Source: a virus. From it: a stretch of DNA of 25,508 bases. Both the position numbers and the translations under genes were made by a program. The stretch spans positions 1-25,508 of IMG/VR virus record IMGVR_UViG_3300025276_000198; one strand, 5' to 3'. The notes beneath the pieces were generated by a model, which did no database searches, was not told where the DNA came from, and saw only the letters and a program-made list of their open reading frames with translations. Numbering within the stretch: position 1 is the first letter of the stretch; each line of letters opens with the position of its first letter. Of the stretch, positions 4,476 through 8,716 are shown in pieces.

Positions 4476-4498
4476 AATCCGGCCCCTGTGGTCGGATT
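4476..4498. repeat. Constant-loop hairpin, copy 1
   Basis: AATCCG (4476-4481) pairs with CGGATT (4493-4498) around the 11-base loop GCCCCTGTGGT. The same loop core, CCCCTGTGG, sits in equal-sized hairpins at 5237-5259 and 8006-8028 whose stems differ but still pair. It lies between the structured domain and the ssDNA-binding gene. A frame at 4430-4639 crosses it, but has no ribosome binding site. Confidence 0.75.
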
Positions 4499-4670: not shown

Positions 4671-5192
4671 TTAGAACATTGCCTCTAAGTCTTCATCTTT
4701 CTCACCAGAAACAGTAGGTGACATTTCACCAAGCACATCAAAGTCGATGTCACTGCCGCTGTATTCAATAAGCTCAGTCACTTGTACAGCTGTGAGAGAA
4801 TTGAATATTGATTCGTTATTGTCACCATAAGGCGCTTGCCATACGATAACATTAACTGTTGAACCATTGCCAATGATTTTAGCGTCCATTGGTTGCTTAT
4901 CACTACCAACTACACGAGGCTTACCATTGTCGCTGCCATCTGCTTTTAGAGCACGGCGTCGAATGGTTAAGCTAGACACACCGTCTTTGTTCTCTTTCAC
5001 AGGCAGATGGTTATCTTTCCATAGCTGTAGAGTGGCTGCGTCTTTAGCTCGTAGCTGAATTTCAAACTGCAATGGTGTAGTGAAAGGCCGACCATTGACT
5101 GTGCCTTTACCAATCTGAGGTGTTTCCAGCTTAGGGTAATAGGCTTCGGCGTTAGTGATCATGAAGTTCCGTGGTTTAGCAAGAGTAATCAT
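4671..5192 (-). CDS. Phage single-stranded DNA-binding protein (gp2.5-like)
   Basis: Probably coats ssDNA during phage replication and recombination and contacts the replisome through its acidic tail. The 173-aa protein looks like an OB-fold protein of the T7 gp2.5 type: a beta-rich body with PFTTPLQFEIQL, a basic SLTIRRRALK segment, MDAKIIGNGSTVNVIVWQAPY (20 residues or fewer per strand) and GVS/LTAVQVTELIEY. It ends with the acidic tail EKDEDLEAMF, with an aromatic last residue as in gp2.5. AAAGGA lies seven bases before ATG 5192. It is the main replication gene visible here; a polymerase and helicase must lie elsewhere. Confidence 0.8.
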   Translation of the reverse strand: MITLAKPRNFMITNAEAYYPKLETPQIGKGTVNGRPFTTPLQFEIQLRAKDAATLQLWKDNHLPVKENKDGVSSLTIRRRALKADGSDNGKPRVVGSDKQPMDAKIIGNGSTVNVIVWQAPYGDNNESIFNSLTAVQVTELIEYSGSDIDFDVLGEMSPTVSGEKDEDLEAMF

Positions 5193-5236: not shown

Positions 5237-5259
5237 AATTGACCCCCTGTGGGTCGATT
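5237..5259. repeat. Constant-loop hairpin, copy 3 (between small membrane gene and SSB)
   Basis: AATTGA (5237-5242) pairs with TCGATT (5254-5259), one wobble, around the loop CCCCCTGTGGG, whose outer bases can also pair. It lies 4 bases past the stop of the 57-aa gene and 44 bases upstream of the SSB start, so a leftward transcript would carry it in the intercistronic leader. Confidence 0.75.
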
Positions 5260-5263
5260 ACTT

Positions 5264-5437
5264 TTAGTGGCAGGGGAATGACATAGCGTGTCTTTGGTCG
5301 TGCGCTGCATCATGTACACTAGTTGATTGTAAGAATCCTGAGATGGATACTAGAATAACTCCCAAAGATAACAGCATCAGTACTACCGATATGCTTTTCT
5401 GAATGGGAGCTGAGATTGTTCTGCTAGTCAACATCAT
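5264..5437 (-). CDS. 57-aa single-pass membrane protein
   Basis: The frame runs from ATG 5437 to TAA 5264-5266. It starts MMLTSRTISAPIQKS, has one hydrophobic helix (about 17-36, VVLMLLSLGVILVSISGF) and a His-rich polar tail (VHDAAHDQRHAMSFPCH). The basic N-terminus and polar tail suggest N-in, C-out. It overlaps the end of the upstream 35-aa membrane gene by 14 bases, with only a weak GGTGG upstream, so coupled translation is likely. A holin-like or envelope role is possible but unproven. Confidence 0.55.
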   Translation of the reverse strand: MMLTSRTISAPIQKSISVVLMLLSLGVILVSISGFLQSTSVHDAAHDQRHAMSFPCH

Positions 5438-5716: not shown

Positions 5717-5940
5717 TTAAATGATCCTTCCAATGCATAGTTGTTAGCCCTAGACAGTAGGGATATGAGTTTAGTTATAGTGAGTCCACGATGAACATCT
5801 TCTGGCTCTTGGTAGAGTTGTGAAGAGAACGGTGTTATATCACCTTCTGGGTTTATAAGAGCACATTCGACTCTTTTATTACCATCTTGAATGATGGATA
5901 CCTCGTACCCACCATCCAGTCCTATTCTTACTGATGCCAT
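5704..5940 (-). CDS. Hypothetical 78-aa phage protein
   Basis: Small protein with a beta-rich start (ASVRIGLDGGYEVSIIQDG) and a helical end (TKLISLLSRANNYALEG). ATG 5940 lies 13 bases inside the end of the upstream gene, so expression is probably coupled. No motif recognised. Confidence 0.68.
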   Translation of the reverse strand: MASVRIGLDGGYEVSIIQDGNKRVECALINPEGDITPFSSQLYQEPEDVHRGLTITKLISLLSRANNYALEGSFKCNR

Positions 5941-6410
5941 AGATCAGCCTCCTCTAAAGCTGTATCATCTGCGTAGTTACCACTGCCATGTTTATCCAAC
6001 AGCTCAATCTCAGCGTATTCTTTAGAATATTCTACTCTGAACGCAACGTATTCTTCAGCAGACTCTACTTCTTCTTCGGTCCAGTTATCACCGCCATCCA
6101 GATCTTCAGTTAAGACGTTTAGAATTTCTCTGACTGTCCACTTAGACCTATAAGATAGTTCTCCTAACGTTAGATCAGGTGAGTTATCAAACAATTCTAG
6201 GACTTGAGACTTATCCCAACGCTTAGGTTTACCAACAGTAATTTTCATCAATTCCTCCTCTTTGATTGTTACTTTAAATATTTGAGCTATGTCATCATCC
6301 ATAGACTCTGTTAGTATTGCTAGACACTCTACGTATGTTCCTGTATAGAAGAGCTGATTTTCTTTGTACAGCTCATGGAATGTTTCACGTACTATTTCGT
6401 TATCGGCCAT
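5928..6410 (-). CDS. Hypothetical 160-aa protein with a helix-turn-helix-like core and internal start
   Basis: Two parts are visible. Residues 1-54 form an acidic helical section. Residues 55-160 begin MKITVGKPKRWDKSQVLELF and include DLTLGELSYRSKWTVREIL (about 79-97), a plausible helix-turn-helix, then an acidic Glu-rich tail. Codon 55 is ATG 6248, preceded by a perfect AGGAGG with a 5-base spacer, so a 106-aa form may be made from inside the same frame. This looks like two formerly separate genes joined in frame, or one gene with a nested product. The main start ATG 6410 uses the repeated leader. DNA binding is inference. Confidence 0.68.
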   Translation of the reverse strand: MADNEIVRETFHELYKENQLFYTGTYVECLAILTESMDDDIAQIFKVTIKEEELMKITVGKPKRWDKSQVLELFDNSPDLTLGELSYRSKWTVREILNVLTEDLDGGDNWTEEEVESAEEYVAFRVEYSKEYAEIELLDKHGSGNYADDTALEEADLWHQ

Positions 6411-6485
6411 TGTATATCCTTTCTAGATATAGGTTAAGTGTTTATGAAACAGCAACCATTACGATTGCTGAAGCAAAAAGACTTA
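6411..6485 (-). promoter_or_regulatory. Repeated 5' leader, full copy A
   Basis: Read leftward it holds two hairpins. CAGCAATC pairs with GGTTGCTG around GTAAT (8 bp, one wobble). TATATC pairs with GATATA around TAGAAAG, placing the AGAAAGGA ribosome binding site in the loop and 3' arm just before ATG 6410. Nearly identical copies precede the genes starting at 6812 and 7264, with short copies before 7681 and 7848. Confidence 0.85.
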
Positions 6486-6812
6486 TTAATCTCTAATAAT
6501 TGTTTCTTTTACATCGAGTTTGATTTCGACACAGTTAGATACAGCTAACCTGAAGACCGTTGGTTGTGCTTCTGAATCACGATAATTCCAGCGGATAGAT
6601 TGCAGGTGAGCGTATGCTGATTTTGCACTGGCAAATGATTTGCACTCTTTTTCACTGAACAACATTGCTGTAATAGCATAATCATCTGGCATGGGATTAG
6701 GGAAGGTCAAAGGAAGTTCTTTCCTCCCAGTGTCTTCATCAATGGTAAATGGCACTTTCACAATGTATAGGTATGTTGTGAGGTCTTTGAATGTGATTTT
6801 ATTAGTAGTCAT
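6486..6812 (-). CDS. Hypothetical 108-aa phage protein
   Basis: Soluble protein of mixed character: MTTNKITFKDLTTYLYIVKV, a Pro-rich loop (LPLTFPNPMPDDY), a helix with FASAKSAYAHLQSIRWNYRD, and a beta-like end (FRLAVSNCVEIKLDVKETI). No motif recognised. ATG 6812 is served by its own copy of the repeated leader. Its stop falls right next to the following leader copy. The cassette arrangement suggests an accessory early gene. Confidence 0.7.
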   Translation of the reverse strand: MTTNKITFKDLTTYLYIVKVPFTIDEDTGRKELPLTFPNPMPDDYAITAMLFSEKECKSFASAKSAYAHLQSIRWNYRDSEAQPTVFRLAVSNCVEIKLDVKETIIRD

Positions 6813-6892
6813 AATATATCCTTTCTAGATATAGGTTGGGTTAAGTGTTTATGAAACAGCAACCATTACGATTGCTGAAGCAAAAAGACTTA
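6813..6892 (-). promoter_or_regulatory. Repeated 5' leader, full copy B
   Basis: Same two hairpins as copy A, with a 4-5 base insertion (GGTTGGGTTAAG instead of GGTTAAG). Its far end supplies the TAA stop (6890-6892) of the gene upstream in the transcript. Bases 6893 to about 6920 look like the start of another, diverged copy lying inside that gene's last codons. Confidence 0.85.
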
Positions 6893-7264
6893 AGTGTTTA
6901 TGGAAGAGCAACCATCGTCACCTGTTTCAATATAGTATCCGGTGTGATACCATTTGGGTGACACTCGCTTGACCACTGATAGGTAATAATCCCTGATGGA
7001 TTGCTCCTCGCCTGCATCGTCTGGCAATTCATTTACCCACTTGGTGACAGTAATCACTTCTTGTGGAAACTCTTTGTTTAACAGGTCGTTGTCCTCCATG
7101 AGCAATGCGGCTACGAATGCCATTGCGTCCTGTGGACGATCCAAGTCCTCAACTTGGTAGTAGTTACCACCCTTGAACTTCCAATATGCGTTACCGTTTG
7201 CGAACTTTCCGTCTTTAGAATGTGCGCCGTAGTTCTCTAAAGTCTGCGTAGTTACTATAAACAT
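6890..7264 (-). CDS. Hypothetical 124-aa phage protein (MFIVTTQTLENYGAH type)
   Basis: Begins MFIVTTQTLENYGAHSKDGK and continues with NAYWKFKGGNYYQV, a pattern I recall from uncharacterised phage proteins. Acidic middle (EEQSIRDYYLSVVKRVSPKW) and a C-terminus YYIETGDDGCSSINT. The last codons and stop lie in sequence resembling the repeated leader, so the repeat seems to have moulded the gene's end. It has its own full leader. Function unknown. Confidence 0.7.
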   Translation of the reverse strand: MFIVTTQTLENYGAHSKDGKFANGNAYWKFKGGNYYQVEDLDRPQDAMAFVAALLMEDNDLLNKEFPQEVITVTKWVNELPDDAGEEQSIRDYYLSVVKRVSPKWYHTGYYIETGDDGCSSINT

Positions 7265-7339
7265 AATATATCCTTTCTAGATATAGGTTAAGTGTTTATG
7301 AAACAGCAACCATTACGATTGCTGAAGCAAAAAGACTTA
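7265..7339 (-). promoter_or_regulatory. Repeated 5' leader, full copy C
   Basis: Practically identical to copy A, with both hairpins intact. The end of the repeat (actta, 7335-7339) supplies the TAA stop of the gene upstream in the transcript, showing that the repeat unit spans from a stop codon to the next start codon. Confidence 0.85.
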
Positions 7340-7681
7340 GTTGAAGAGTGAGATTTGTCTTGGATCTTGTGCAAGGTCACTAGGTTCCAAGTCAAATTCA
7401 GAATAGAAATCTTGGAATCTGCCCTCTCCGTTATCAGCTTTAGTTACCGCATCGTTGAAATAGGTAATGTCAAGAGCTTCATAGGCGTAATCTGGGCATA
7501 CACGAGATAGTTCAACTATTCGTATTAGTTCGCTCTTTGAGCAAGTTAGAAAGAAATCACCTAAAGCATCTGCTTTGGGATTGTTGATCCACACATCGTT
7601 GCCAAGTTTGTCACCTGCCTCAAGTATGGCTAGACGCTTAGCAGCACGAAGGATGATCTTATCTGACGTTGGGAATTTCAT
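7337..7681 (-). CDS. Hypothetical 114-aa acidic phage protein
   Basis: Soluble, largely helical protein: MKFPTSDKIILRAAKRLAIL, a Cys-containing helix (FFLTCSKSELIRIVELSRVC) and an acidic end with FQDFYSEFDLEPSDLAQDP. ATG 7681 is chosen, five codons inside a longer frame that opens with TTG in the leader, because GAAAGGATATACC before ATG matches the leader used by the neighbours. Not recognised. Confidence 0.7.
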   Translation of the reverse strand: MKFPTSDKIILRAAKRLAILEAGDKLGNDVWINNPKADALGDFFLTCSKSELIRIVELSRVCPDYAYEALDITYFNDAVTKADNGEGRFQDFYSEFDLEPSDLAQDPRQISLFN

Positions 7682-7709
7682 GGTATATCCTTTCAAGATA
7701 TAGTTTAAG
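7682..7709 (-). promoter_or_regulatory. Short copy D of the repeated leader
   Basis: Keeps only the start-proximal hairpin: CTATATC, loop TTGAAAG, GATATACC, then ATG. The stem is identical to the full copies while one loop base differs (A to T). The distal hairpin is missing. The TAA of the upstream gene (7705-7707) lies in this copy. Confidence 0.75.
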
Positions 7710-7848
7710 AATTGAAGTCGTAGAAGTCACCCTCTATGGGTGTGCCGCACTCAAAGTGTGTACGCCAGTTGGTATTATGGTTGAGATTAGCGCAGCATAG
7801 CCAATCGTTATAAGCTTGCTCCGAAGCTTCATTCTTTGTCATAAGCAT
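7705..7848 (-). CDS. 47-aa hypothetical protein, first leftward gene after the control region
   Basis: Starts MLMTKNEASEQAYNDWLCCA and ends GTPIEGDFYDFNS, with three Cys and one His. ATG 7848 follows short leader copy E. A longer frame reaches 7998, but its upstream part is a low-complexity Leu/Pro/Ser translation of the T-free tract and is not credible. The gene is closest to the leftward promoter-like element at 8220-8239, so it may be expressed first. Confidence 0.62.
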   Translation of the reverse strand: MLMTKNEASEQAYNDWLCCANLNHNTNWRTHFECGTPIEGDFYDFNS

Positions 7849-7876
7849 GGTATATCCTTTCAAGATATAGGTTGGT
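7849..7876 (-). promoter_or_regulatory. Short copy E of the repeated leader
   Basis: Carries the start-proximal hairpin with loop TTGAAAG and GATATACC directly before ATG 7848, like copy D. Beyond it the sequence leaves the repeat and enters CTTGTCGG and the T-free tract. Confidence 0.75.
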
Positions 7877-7890
7877 GCCTTGTCGGACTG

Positions 7891-7999
7891 ACCCACCCCC
7901 AGACCAACCCCAGAGAGAAGCGGAGCAGGCAGAGGGCGGAAGAGACAGAGAGGCAAGAGAGAAGGCAGAGAGGGCAGAGAGGGAAACCCCCACAACACC
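7891..7999. other. 109-nt tract without T on the + strand
   Basis: No T occurs from 7891 to 7999 in an otherwise AT-rich genome. The outer parts are C/A-rich and the centre (about 7911-7987) is almost pure G/A with imperfect GGCAGAGAGG units. A leftward transcript would have an A-free, C/U-rich leader here, about 220-330 nt after the proposed start at 8220. No gene is credible in it. Confidence 0.9.
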
Positions 8000-8005
8000 T
8001 CTGCA

Positions 8006-8028
8006 AATCAGGCCCCTGTGGACTGATT
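8006..8028. repeat. Constant-loop hairpin, copy 2
   Basis: AATCAG (8006-8011) pairs with CTGATT (8023-8028) around GCCCCTGTGGA. The stem differs from copies at 4476 and 5237, yet pairing and the 11-base loop length are kept. It stands in the untranslated region of the leftward transcript. Confidence 0.75.
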
Positions 8029-8115
8029 ACTTACTCTACAACCTAATGACATCTAGCATCTACAAGACCTAACAGACACCAAGAGAACACATAGCTTGGG
8101 TCTTATCTGATAGGT

Positions 8116-8516
8116 ACTGAGAGACACTGAGAGATACTGAGATAGAGCTGAGAGAGACTTAGAGAGTATAGATATATATAGTAACCTAATGGATAGGGGC
8201 AGGCTTGGATAGCTTCTCCCTATAAGGAACTTAGAGAATAGGATGTCATTGCCCCACAGTCTCTCGAAGTTCTCACAGTACATCGATCCTCCCGCTAGTG
8301 CCTATGCCACCAGAGAACCTCACAGAGCCATGATACCTCAGAGTACCTCACAGTACCTGAGAGAACCTTAGAGGCTATGAGAGACCCCTTGAGGGCTCTC
8401 AGAGACTCCCTGAAAGAAAGACAAGAAGATCTTGATCCCGACTAGGGATCTCTATAAAGATTGAATGATTGAGGTGGTGGTAGCTGAAAGAGTCTGATAA
8501 AGCTGAGAGAACCTGA
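8116..8516. repeat. 10-bp repeats in the divergent control region
   Basis: Three tandem units ACTGAGAGAC, ACTGAGAGAT, ACTGAGATAG run from 8116 to 8145. Four tandem units of the form NRNWACCTNA fill 8331-8370, with further GAGAACCTNA copies at 8313-8322 and 8507-8516. The 10-bp step would place each unit on the same face of the helix. The region lies between the divergent promoter-like elements and before terL, and has no credible gene. Iterons of an origin or packaging-site repeats are possible. Confidence 0.65.
8220..8239 (-). promoter_or_regulatory. Leftward T7-type promoter-like element (P1)
   Basis: Read leftward: ATTCTCTAAGTTCCTTATAG, continuing GGAGA. The TATA followed by GGGAGA is the same arrangement as around +1 in T7 promoters, giving a predicted start at 8220. 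It points at the leftward gene block. Two near-identical copies point rightward at 8680 and 10487. Confidence 0.7.
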
Positions 8517-8679
8517 GAGAGATTGAGGGGGTACCGTGAAATAAATGAGGGTACTGAATATAAAAACAATACTTACAGGCTCTCTCTAAGCCACTCAATG
8601 TACCTCAAAGCACCTAGGGGGTACTCCAATCTGTACAGATACACACAGAATCCTAAAATATACTACAATATAACTACAG

Positions 8680-8699
8680 ATTGTCTAAGTTCCTTATAG
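8680..8699 (+). promoter_or_regulatory. Rightward T7-type promoter-like element before terL (P2)
   Basis: ATTGTCTAAGTTCCTTATAG differs from P1 and P3 at one base. The predicted start G8699 is 18 bases upstream of the terL ATG, leaving a very short leader that contains the AGGGG ribosome binding site. It would drive packaging and virion genes. Confidence 0.7.
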
Positions 8700-8716
8700 A
8701 TATATAGGGGACACAG

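Follow-up and report, generated by a model that had tools for sequence, protein, structure and literature searches.

The leader that recurs before the small minus-strand genes of the window, by which we mean all 25,508 bases of IMG/VR virus record IMGVR_UViG_3300025276_000198, is likely to be a two-part RNA control module that also forms the joint between genes in an early-region cassette array of CRP-7-type phages; its regulatory role is one that we infer from sequence. The window terminase shares 62% identity with its counterpart in Roseobacter phage CRP-7. Virion genes occupy the plus strand from 8717, and the small genes lie on the minus strand, directed away from a control region at ~7877–8716; we call them early because of this position. 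With the terminase as guide, 80 related loci were retrieved, about 30 of which carry enough upstream sequence for mapping; apart from the cultured phage CRP-7 (MK613349), the genomes compared are IMG/VR metagenome contigs. A T7-like RNA polymerase is encoded in all five long genomes. The window encodes a Gp2.5-like annealing protein (4671–5192) just downstream of the array, and CRP-7 encodes an exonuclease.

Five minus-strand genes (5928–7848) are preceded by this one leader, as the initial annotation had proposed, and its division into three near-identical and two shortened copies was borne out by the E-values of the repeat matches. The long copies, at 6411–6485 (75 nt), 6813–6892 (80 nt), and 7265–7339 (75 nt), are 94–100% identical over their shared length and matched the query copy with E-values of 7e-37, 4e-34, and 3e-30; the short copies, at 7682–7704 and 7849–~7876, retain only the part adjacent to the start codon and matched at 1.4e-7 and 2.6e-7. 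All five lie on the minus strand and end at an ATG, and their E-values exclude a chance repeat. The leader core is CTATATCTWGAAAGGATATA. Each long leader consists of two modules, a 54-nt imperfect hairpin (M51) and, just before the ATG, a 19-nt hairpin with the Shine-Dalgarno (SD) sequence in it (the SD hairpin), the latter adjoining M51 directly or after 5 nt and ending 2 nt before the start codon. The long copies fold with predicted energies of -19.5 to -19.6 kcal/mol (z-scores of -3.6 to -4.1), which none of 200 shuffled sequences equaled. The leader found no match in Rfam or, at low stringency, in a phage DNA collection. Scans for a sigma-70 promoter or an intrinsic terminator within the leader gave no support to either: sigma-70-like sites, the promoter type that the scan covered, numbered 14 versus 11.3 in shuffled sequence, which is no excess, no T-run follows the M51 stem, and M51 is absent from the terminator-like sites.

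The 6-bp hairpin around the ribosome binding site that had been noted earlier is present as TATATC/GATATA, and in the window the SD module takes the form TATATC-TAGAAAG-GATATA or TATATC-TTGAAAG-GATATA. Its minus-strand copies lie at 6413–6431 (TAGAAAG loop; before gene 5928–6410), 6815–6833 (before gene 6486–6812), 7267–7285 (before gene 6890–7264), 7684–7702 (TTGAAAG loop, without M51; before gene 7337–7681), and 7851–7869 (TTGAAAG loop; before the first gene after the control region). Among the relatives, the stems enclosing the same SD loop are TATATC, AACTC, TCTC, AAACC, CATTC, and CTATC, and a TTAGtC stem stands before gene family F7. Two-sided changes were found in five of the six stem pairs across 13 distinct leaders, giving a covariation score of 0.515, compared with 0.164 for shuffled alignments (0 of 500 reached the observed score) and at most 0.139 for slid controls. 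The mean stem length of 64 distinct GAAAGG leaders was 5.5 bp versus 3.0 bp in shuffled flanks, and the predicted stability of all nine SD stem types falls between -4.0 and -5.0 kcal/mol. In CRP-7, SD hairpins before early genes (TATATCTCGAAAGGATATA, TATATCGAGAAAGGATATA, and ATCTCGTGAAAGGAGAT) take the forms TATATC-TCGAAAG-GATATA, TATATC-GAGAAAG-GATATA, and ATCTC-GTGAAAG-GAGAT. The compensatory changes indicate that the SD hairpin is conserved as an RNA structure. Its GAAAGGA presumably pairs with the usual ...CCUCCUUUCU tail of 16S rRNA; a scan of 16S tails, run with too specific a pattern, returned few alphaproteobacteria. Because the GGA is buried within the stem, the hairpin could lower rather than help translation. 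Its most likely role is to set translation. Since it is present in the cultured CRP-7, a translation test is feasible.

M51 (TAAGTCTTTTTGCTTCAGCAATCGTAATGGTTGCTGTTTCATAAACACTTAACC, 54 nt) forms one imperfect stem of 18 pairs, with 8 inner pairs, internal loops, and further pairs down to a TAAGT/ACTTA base. The 8-bp hairpin of the initial annotation (CAGCAATC/GGTTGCTG) is present and, beyond what had been described, is the inner part of this longer stem (TAAGT...ACTTA plus the inner pairs). Complete minus-strand copies span 6432–6485, 6839–6892, and 7286–7339; the first begins with a TAA right after the TAA of gene 6486–6812 and ends at the SD hairpin, and in several copies M51 itself, with its first TAA, supplies the stop codon of the upstream gene. 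At 6890–6915 (minus strand), a remnant of the M51 3' half (92% identical) occupies the last codons of gene 6890–7264 directly before a complete M51 and is a recombination scar. Because M51 is missing from the first genes of the arrays and from leader copies 4 and 5 of the window, it is not essential for expression.

The M51 copies are too alike within their own lineage to serve in a covariation test. A sister lineage (L031–L041) carries in place of M51 a hairpin of other sequence and of the same size, position, and layout (20 pairs, also with internal loops; z-scores of -4.0 to -5.2), in which six inner and outer pairs vary. All of these involve A-U/G-U or U-A/U-G exchanges that preserve pairing in the early-strand RNA only and abolish it in the complement; one end pair is broken in one sequence. 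This G-U-compatible change argues that the larger hairpin, too, is conserved as an RNA structure. Exact-pattern scans of IMG/VR placed both hairpin types in this phage group alone among the contigs examined. By analogy with T7 RNase III sites, M51 is most likely an mRNA-processing or 3'-end-stabilizing hairpin.

Comparison of relatives supported the proposal of the initial annotation that the leaders delimit a cassette system with genes gained and lost by recombination. Numbering the gene families F1, F2, and so on and reading onward from the control region (F4, where written without SD, carries an AACTC-type SD hairpin), we found SD-F4 in L019, SD-F8-M51-F4 in L020 and L021, SD-F9-M51-SD-F8-M51-F4 in L093, and SD-F9-M51-SD-F17-M51-F4 in L016 and L017. 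The array is SD-F5 in L022 and SD-F9-M51-SD-F8-M51-SD-F5 in L024, L040, and L046. The window has SD-F19-SD-F9-M51-SD-F17-M51-SD-F20-M51-SD-F3, L011 has SD-F19-M51-SD-F9-M51-SD-F17-M51-SD-F2-F3, and L010 has SD-F9-M51-SD-F2. Relatives with the same flanks thus differ by none, one, or two whole units of gene, M51, and SD hairpin. Pairwise alignment placed the L019/L020 and L022/L024 junctions inside stretches of 21–25 nt that belong to the SD module, the latter with an overlap of 25 nt in that module. Between the window and L011, F20 with its M51 is replaced by F2, and 99% identity resumes exactly at the GAAAGGATATACA-ATG of F3; GAAAGGATATACA is the end of the F2 coding sequence in L011 and the right half of the SD hairpin in the window. 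In the F5 leader of L026, an AACTC-type left half is fused to a right half of the TATATC type. Some junctions share only ~10–13 bases.

Across 15 representatives, the leader elements hold 35 of the 146 indel junctions of the region, compared with 8.1 expected and a maximum of 18 in 2000 random draws, and the other 111 fall outside leaders; the resulting fourfold ratio is descriptive only, because junctions share ancestry and are not independent. The whole-unit differences together with this excess uphold the cassette idea. The initial annotation had proposed comparing relatives for gene swaps at the leader and had held that unconserved hairpins or a lack of gene turnover would speak against it; gain, loss, and swap bounded by leaders were found, and both hairpins are conserved. 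Exact repeats can cause misassembly, but several of the arrangements recur under different metagenome identifiers.

The five genes downstream had been called unrelated, and their proteins do fall into five different sequence families, none of which matched PHROG or Pfam. All are encoded on the minus strand. Gene 5928–6410 (F3; 160 aa, acidic, net charge -24) is a backbone gene common to most close relatives. Gene 6486–6812 (F20; 108 aa) has F2 (162 aa) in its place in L011 and L010, and F20 homologs in L038 and L041 lie downstream of the sister-lineage leader. Gene 6890–7264 (F17; 124 aa) belongs to a family found in 40 virus contigs, and because the sequence upstream of its homologs in other viruses is unrelated, the leader is the property of the phage lineage and does not travel with the genes between phages; a gene-borne leader is rejected on the same ground. 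Gene 7337–7681 (F9; 114 aa) gave a helical model (pLDDT 84) and ends in DPRQISLF, and the first cassette, 7705–7848 (F19), encodes 47 aa. A tblastn search with F9, F17, and F20 against phage records returned no match, and the structure models of F9 and F17 (pLDDT 84 and 81) found no relative in the PDB.

All seven F9 proteins in alignment A4 have a C-terminus like DPRQISLF or DPRQLSLI, which resembles the bacterial sliding-clamp-binding motif, and judged by this motif F9 proteins might target host DnaN. The F23 cassette gene of L026, L053, and L037 matches the NADAR domain (Pfam PF08719, E-value 5e-5, below the curated cut-off) and could possibly serve in counter-defense against ADP-ribosylating systems. 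F8 proteins (L020, L024, and L093) are very acidic, with a net charge of -17 to -18 in 88–92 aa and a DNA-mimic-like composition. F21, the first cassette gene in L018 and L012, is made of short tandem DNA repeats (GTATGGAAAGACATACCATGTAATGTTATC), and its product repeats the peptide IVWKDIPCN in tandem.

Several features outside the cassettes were also recorded. The control region between the divergent early and late genes contains many short repeats resembling AGAGA/GAGAGACTGAGAGA (8030–8700). A separate minus-strand hairpin with a loop around CCACAGGGG lies 5' of the first cassette (8006–8028), with further minus-strand copies at 4476–4498 and 5237–5259. The stems of this family, AATCnGnCCACAGGGGnCnGATT(TAAAAAGA), differ yet stay complementary, and each long genome has 4–5 copies; its sites include those before an ssb-like gene and the first cassette, and in the window and the three long genomes checked its intergenic copies lie on the early strand in all cases. 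It is possibly a promoter or terminator of early transcription units. The 57-aa protein encoded at 5264–5437 (minus strand) matches CbtB, a probable cobalt transporter subunit (Pfam E-value 1.3e-16), and CRP-7, of the same phage group, has cobalamin-dependent ribonucleotide reductase genes. In CRP-7 (MK613349), gp02 is annotated to start at 619; an SD hairpin at ~646, shortly followed by an ATG, suggests that the true start codon lies further downstream than annotated.

Units of SD hairpin, small gene, and M hairpin are repeated head to tail after the control region, and, as we picture the module, the polycistronic early transcript would be cut or end-protected at the M hairpins. Judging from hairpin size and shape, the cutting nuclease would most likely be RNase III of the host, which also cuts between the early genes of T7. 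On each processed mRNA, the SD hairpin would present GAAAGGA partly in its loop, so that all cassettes would be translated to a similar degree. Recombination between leader copies, whether homologous or by short homology, with the phage Gp2.5-like annealing protein and, in CRP-7, the exonuclease as candidate players, would then swap genes and keep expression intact.

The dyad symmetry of both elements would also be expected if the repeats were DNA-level sites, operator palindromes or promoters akin to PeSL, read by a regulator or polymerase of phage or host, with the predicted fold as a by-product. The phages have their own RNA polymerase, distant relatives (L066, L078, and L080) carry intergenic units of hairpin, T-run, and TATAATA, and the ESAS of cluster K phages were judged likelier to be DNA-binding sites (PMC3203893). 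However, the element sits directly on the SD sequence and start codon, with GAAAGG in its loop; its stem sequence varies freely while pairing and stability stay; the G-U changes pair in the early-strand RNA only; and sigma-70-like sites are not in excess (14 versus 11.3). We consider this reading unlikely. Doubtful, though more deserving of attention, is the possibility that the SD hairpin is the operator of an RNA-binding translational repressor, encoded by phage or host, through which the cassettes are jointly shut off late, in the manner of T4 RegA/RegB or a coat-protein operator, with M51 only protecting 3' ends. Selection by a loop-reading protein would be expected to keep the loop (TTGAAAG/TAGAAAG) and let the stem vary at constant stability, as is seen; the hairpin marks a defined gene set near the control region; and in T4 the SD sequences of early mRNAs are targets of RegB cleavage (PMC3014915). 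Against this, the loop is also merely an extended SD sequence, its residues other than GAAAG vary (TT, TA, AT, TC, and GA), and no candidate regulator was identified. A slightly more tentative proposal is that the stem-variable, loop-conserved SD hairpin offers a phage-encoded regulator one operator shared by all cassette genes and belongs to the RNA module at which cassettes are exchanged; were this so, a captured gene, for example one for anti-defense, would at once come under shared post-transcriptional control.

Functionless tandem-duplication remnants or assembly artefacts might account for the tandem half-copy at 6890–6915 and for a 127-nt overlap of one relative's contig ends within the repeat, and the sources are metagenome contigs. 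We regard this explanation as very improbable: the same arrangements occur under different metagenome identifiers (L016/L017; L020/L021; L024/L040/L046), different lineages and the isolate CRP-7 keep the structure, and the repeats do not separate duplicate genes. Least credible of all is a dedicated site-specific system moving the cassettes, as in integrons, with M51 as an attC-like 3' site. Although a gene followed by a hairpin site after its stop codon resembles the order of an integron cassette, none of the five long genomes matched the phage-integrase family (PF00589, tyrosine integrases), for which the control matched 14 of 14 genomes, and junction positions vary (in the SD module, in M51, or within GAAAGGATATA) as in homology-driven exchange. 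We rejected an integron-like system for want of an integrase; we judge the likeness of ACTTAAC to an integron core site to be a chance one, as the ends are in the opposite order.

Read as an RNA control module and cassette joint, the leader offers a sequence-level mechanism by which abundant marine phages could turn over their small early genes and keep them correctly expressed. It also provides strong evidence, by covariation, for a phage leader that is a hairpin with the SD in its loop; SAS/ESAS, the best-known analogue, is without such evidence. In practice, true start codons can be predicted from the leaders, which also flag a variable region; its contents in relatives include the NADAR-like gene and small, very acidic proteins, candidates for anti-defense.

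The T7 early genes are separated by RNase III sites, irregular hairpins of ~50–60 nt whose processing yields separate mRNAs with hairpin 3' ends. M51, also irregular, intergenic, and about two helical turns long, is likened to them by shape, and it too comes from phages with a T7-like RNA polymerase. The window leaders differ from those of T7 in repeating a single SD-hairpin module. Closest in layout among known systems is the SAS of cluster K mycobacteriophages, a short conserved SD-containing sequence 3–7 bp before many unrelated non-structural genes (Pope et al. 2011, PMC3203893), about half of which have an inverted repeat just upstream (ESAS); they lie on one strand, and the stop codon of the prior gene can lie inside (PMC3203893). 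Pairing of the ESAS arms as RNA gained little support in the authors' analysis (PMC3203893), and the function of SAS/ESAS is still called unverified (PMC12699233). Sequence and host are unrelated to ours: the 13-bp SAS consensus GGGATAGGAGCCC is absent from the window leaders, and M51, which stands before three of the five window SD hairpins, resembles the ESAS inverted repeat in layout only. Whereas SAS is a fixed 13-mer that is not read as a hairpin, the leader has support as an RNA hairpin in both its parts, and comparison of relatives shows genes turning over at it. The PeSL of T4-type phages (Arbiol 2010; Comeau 2014), as described in citing papers, is a repeated intergenic element of early promoter and terminator stem-loop in hyperplastic early regions, with gene shuffling proposed to occur by recombination between copies (PMC4503421, PMC3950731). 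The leader shares with it the shuffling of genes bounded by element copies; it differs from PeSL, so far as those papers convey it, in that neither a sigma-70-type promoter nor a T-run was found and in having an SD hairpin as its second half. The repeated units of hairpin, T-run, and TATAATA 5' of the terminase in L066, L078, and L080 are nearer to PeSL. In the haloarchaeal virus HGTV-1, an inverted-repeat motif precedes most ORFs of one genome half and has been proposed to act in regulation and gene shuffling (PMC3950731); that motif is an archaeal TATA-box promoter motif, whereas the window leader is an SD hairpin.
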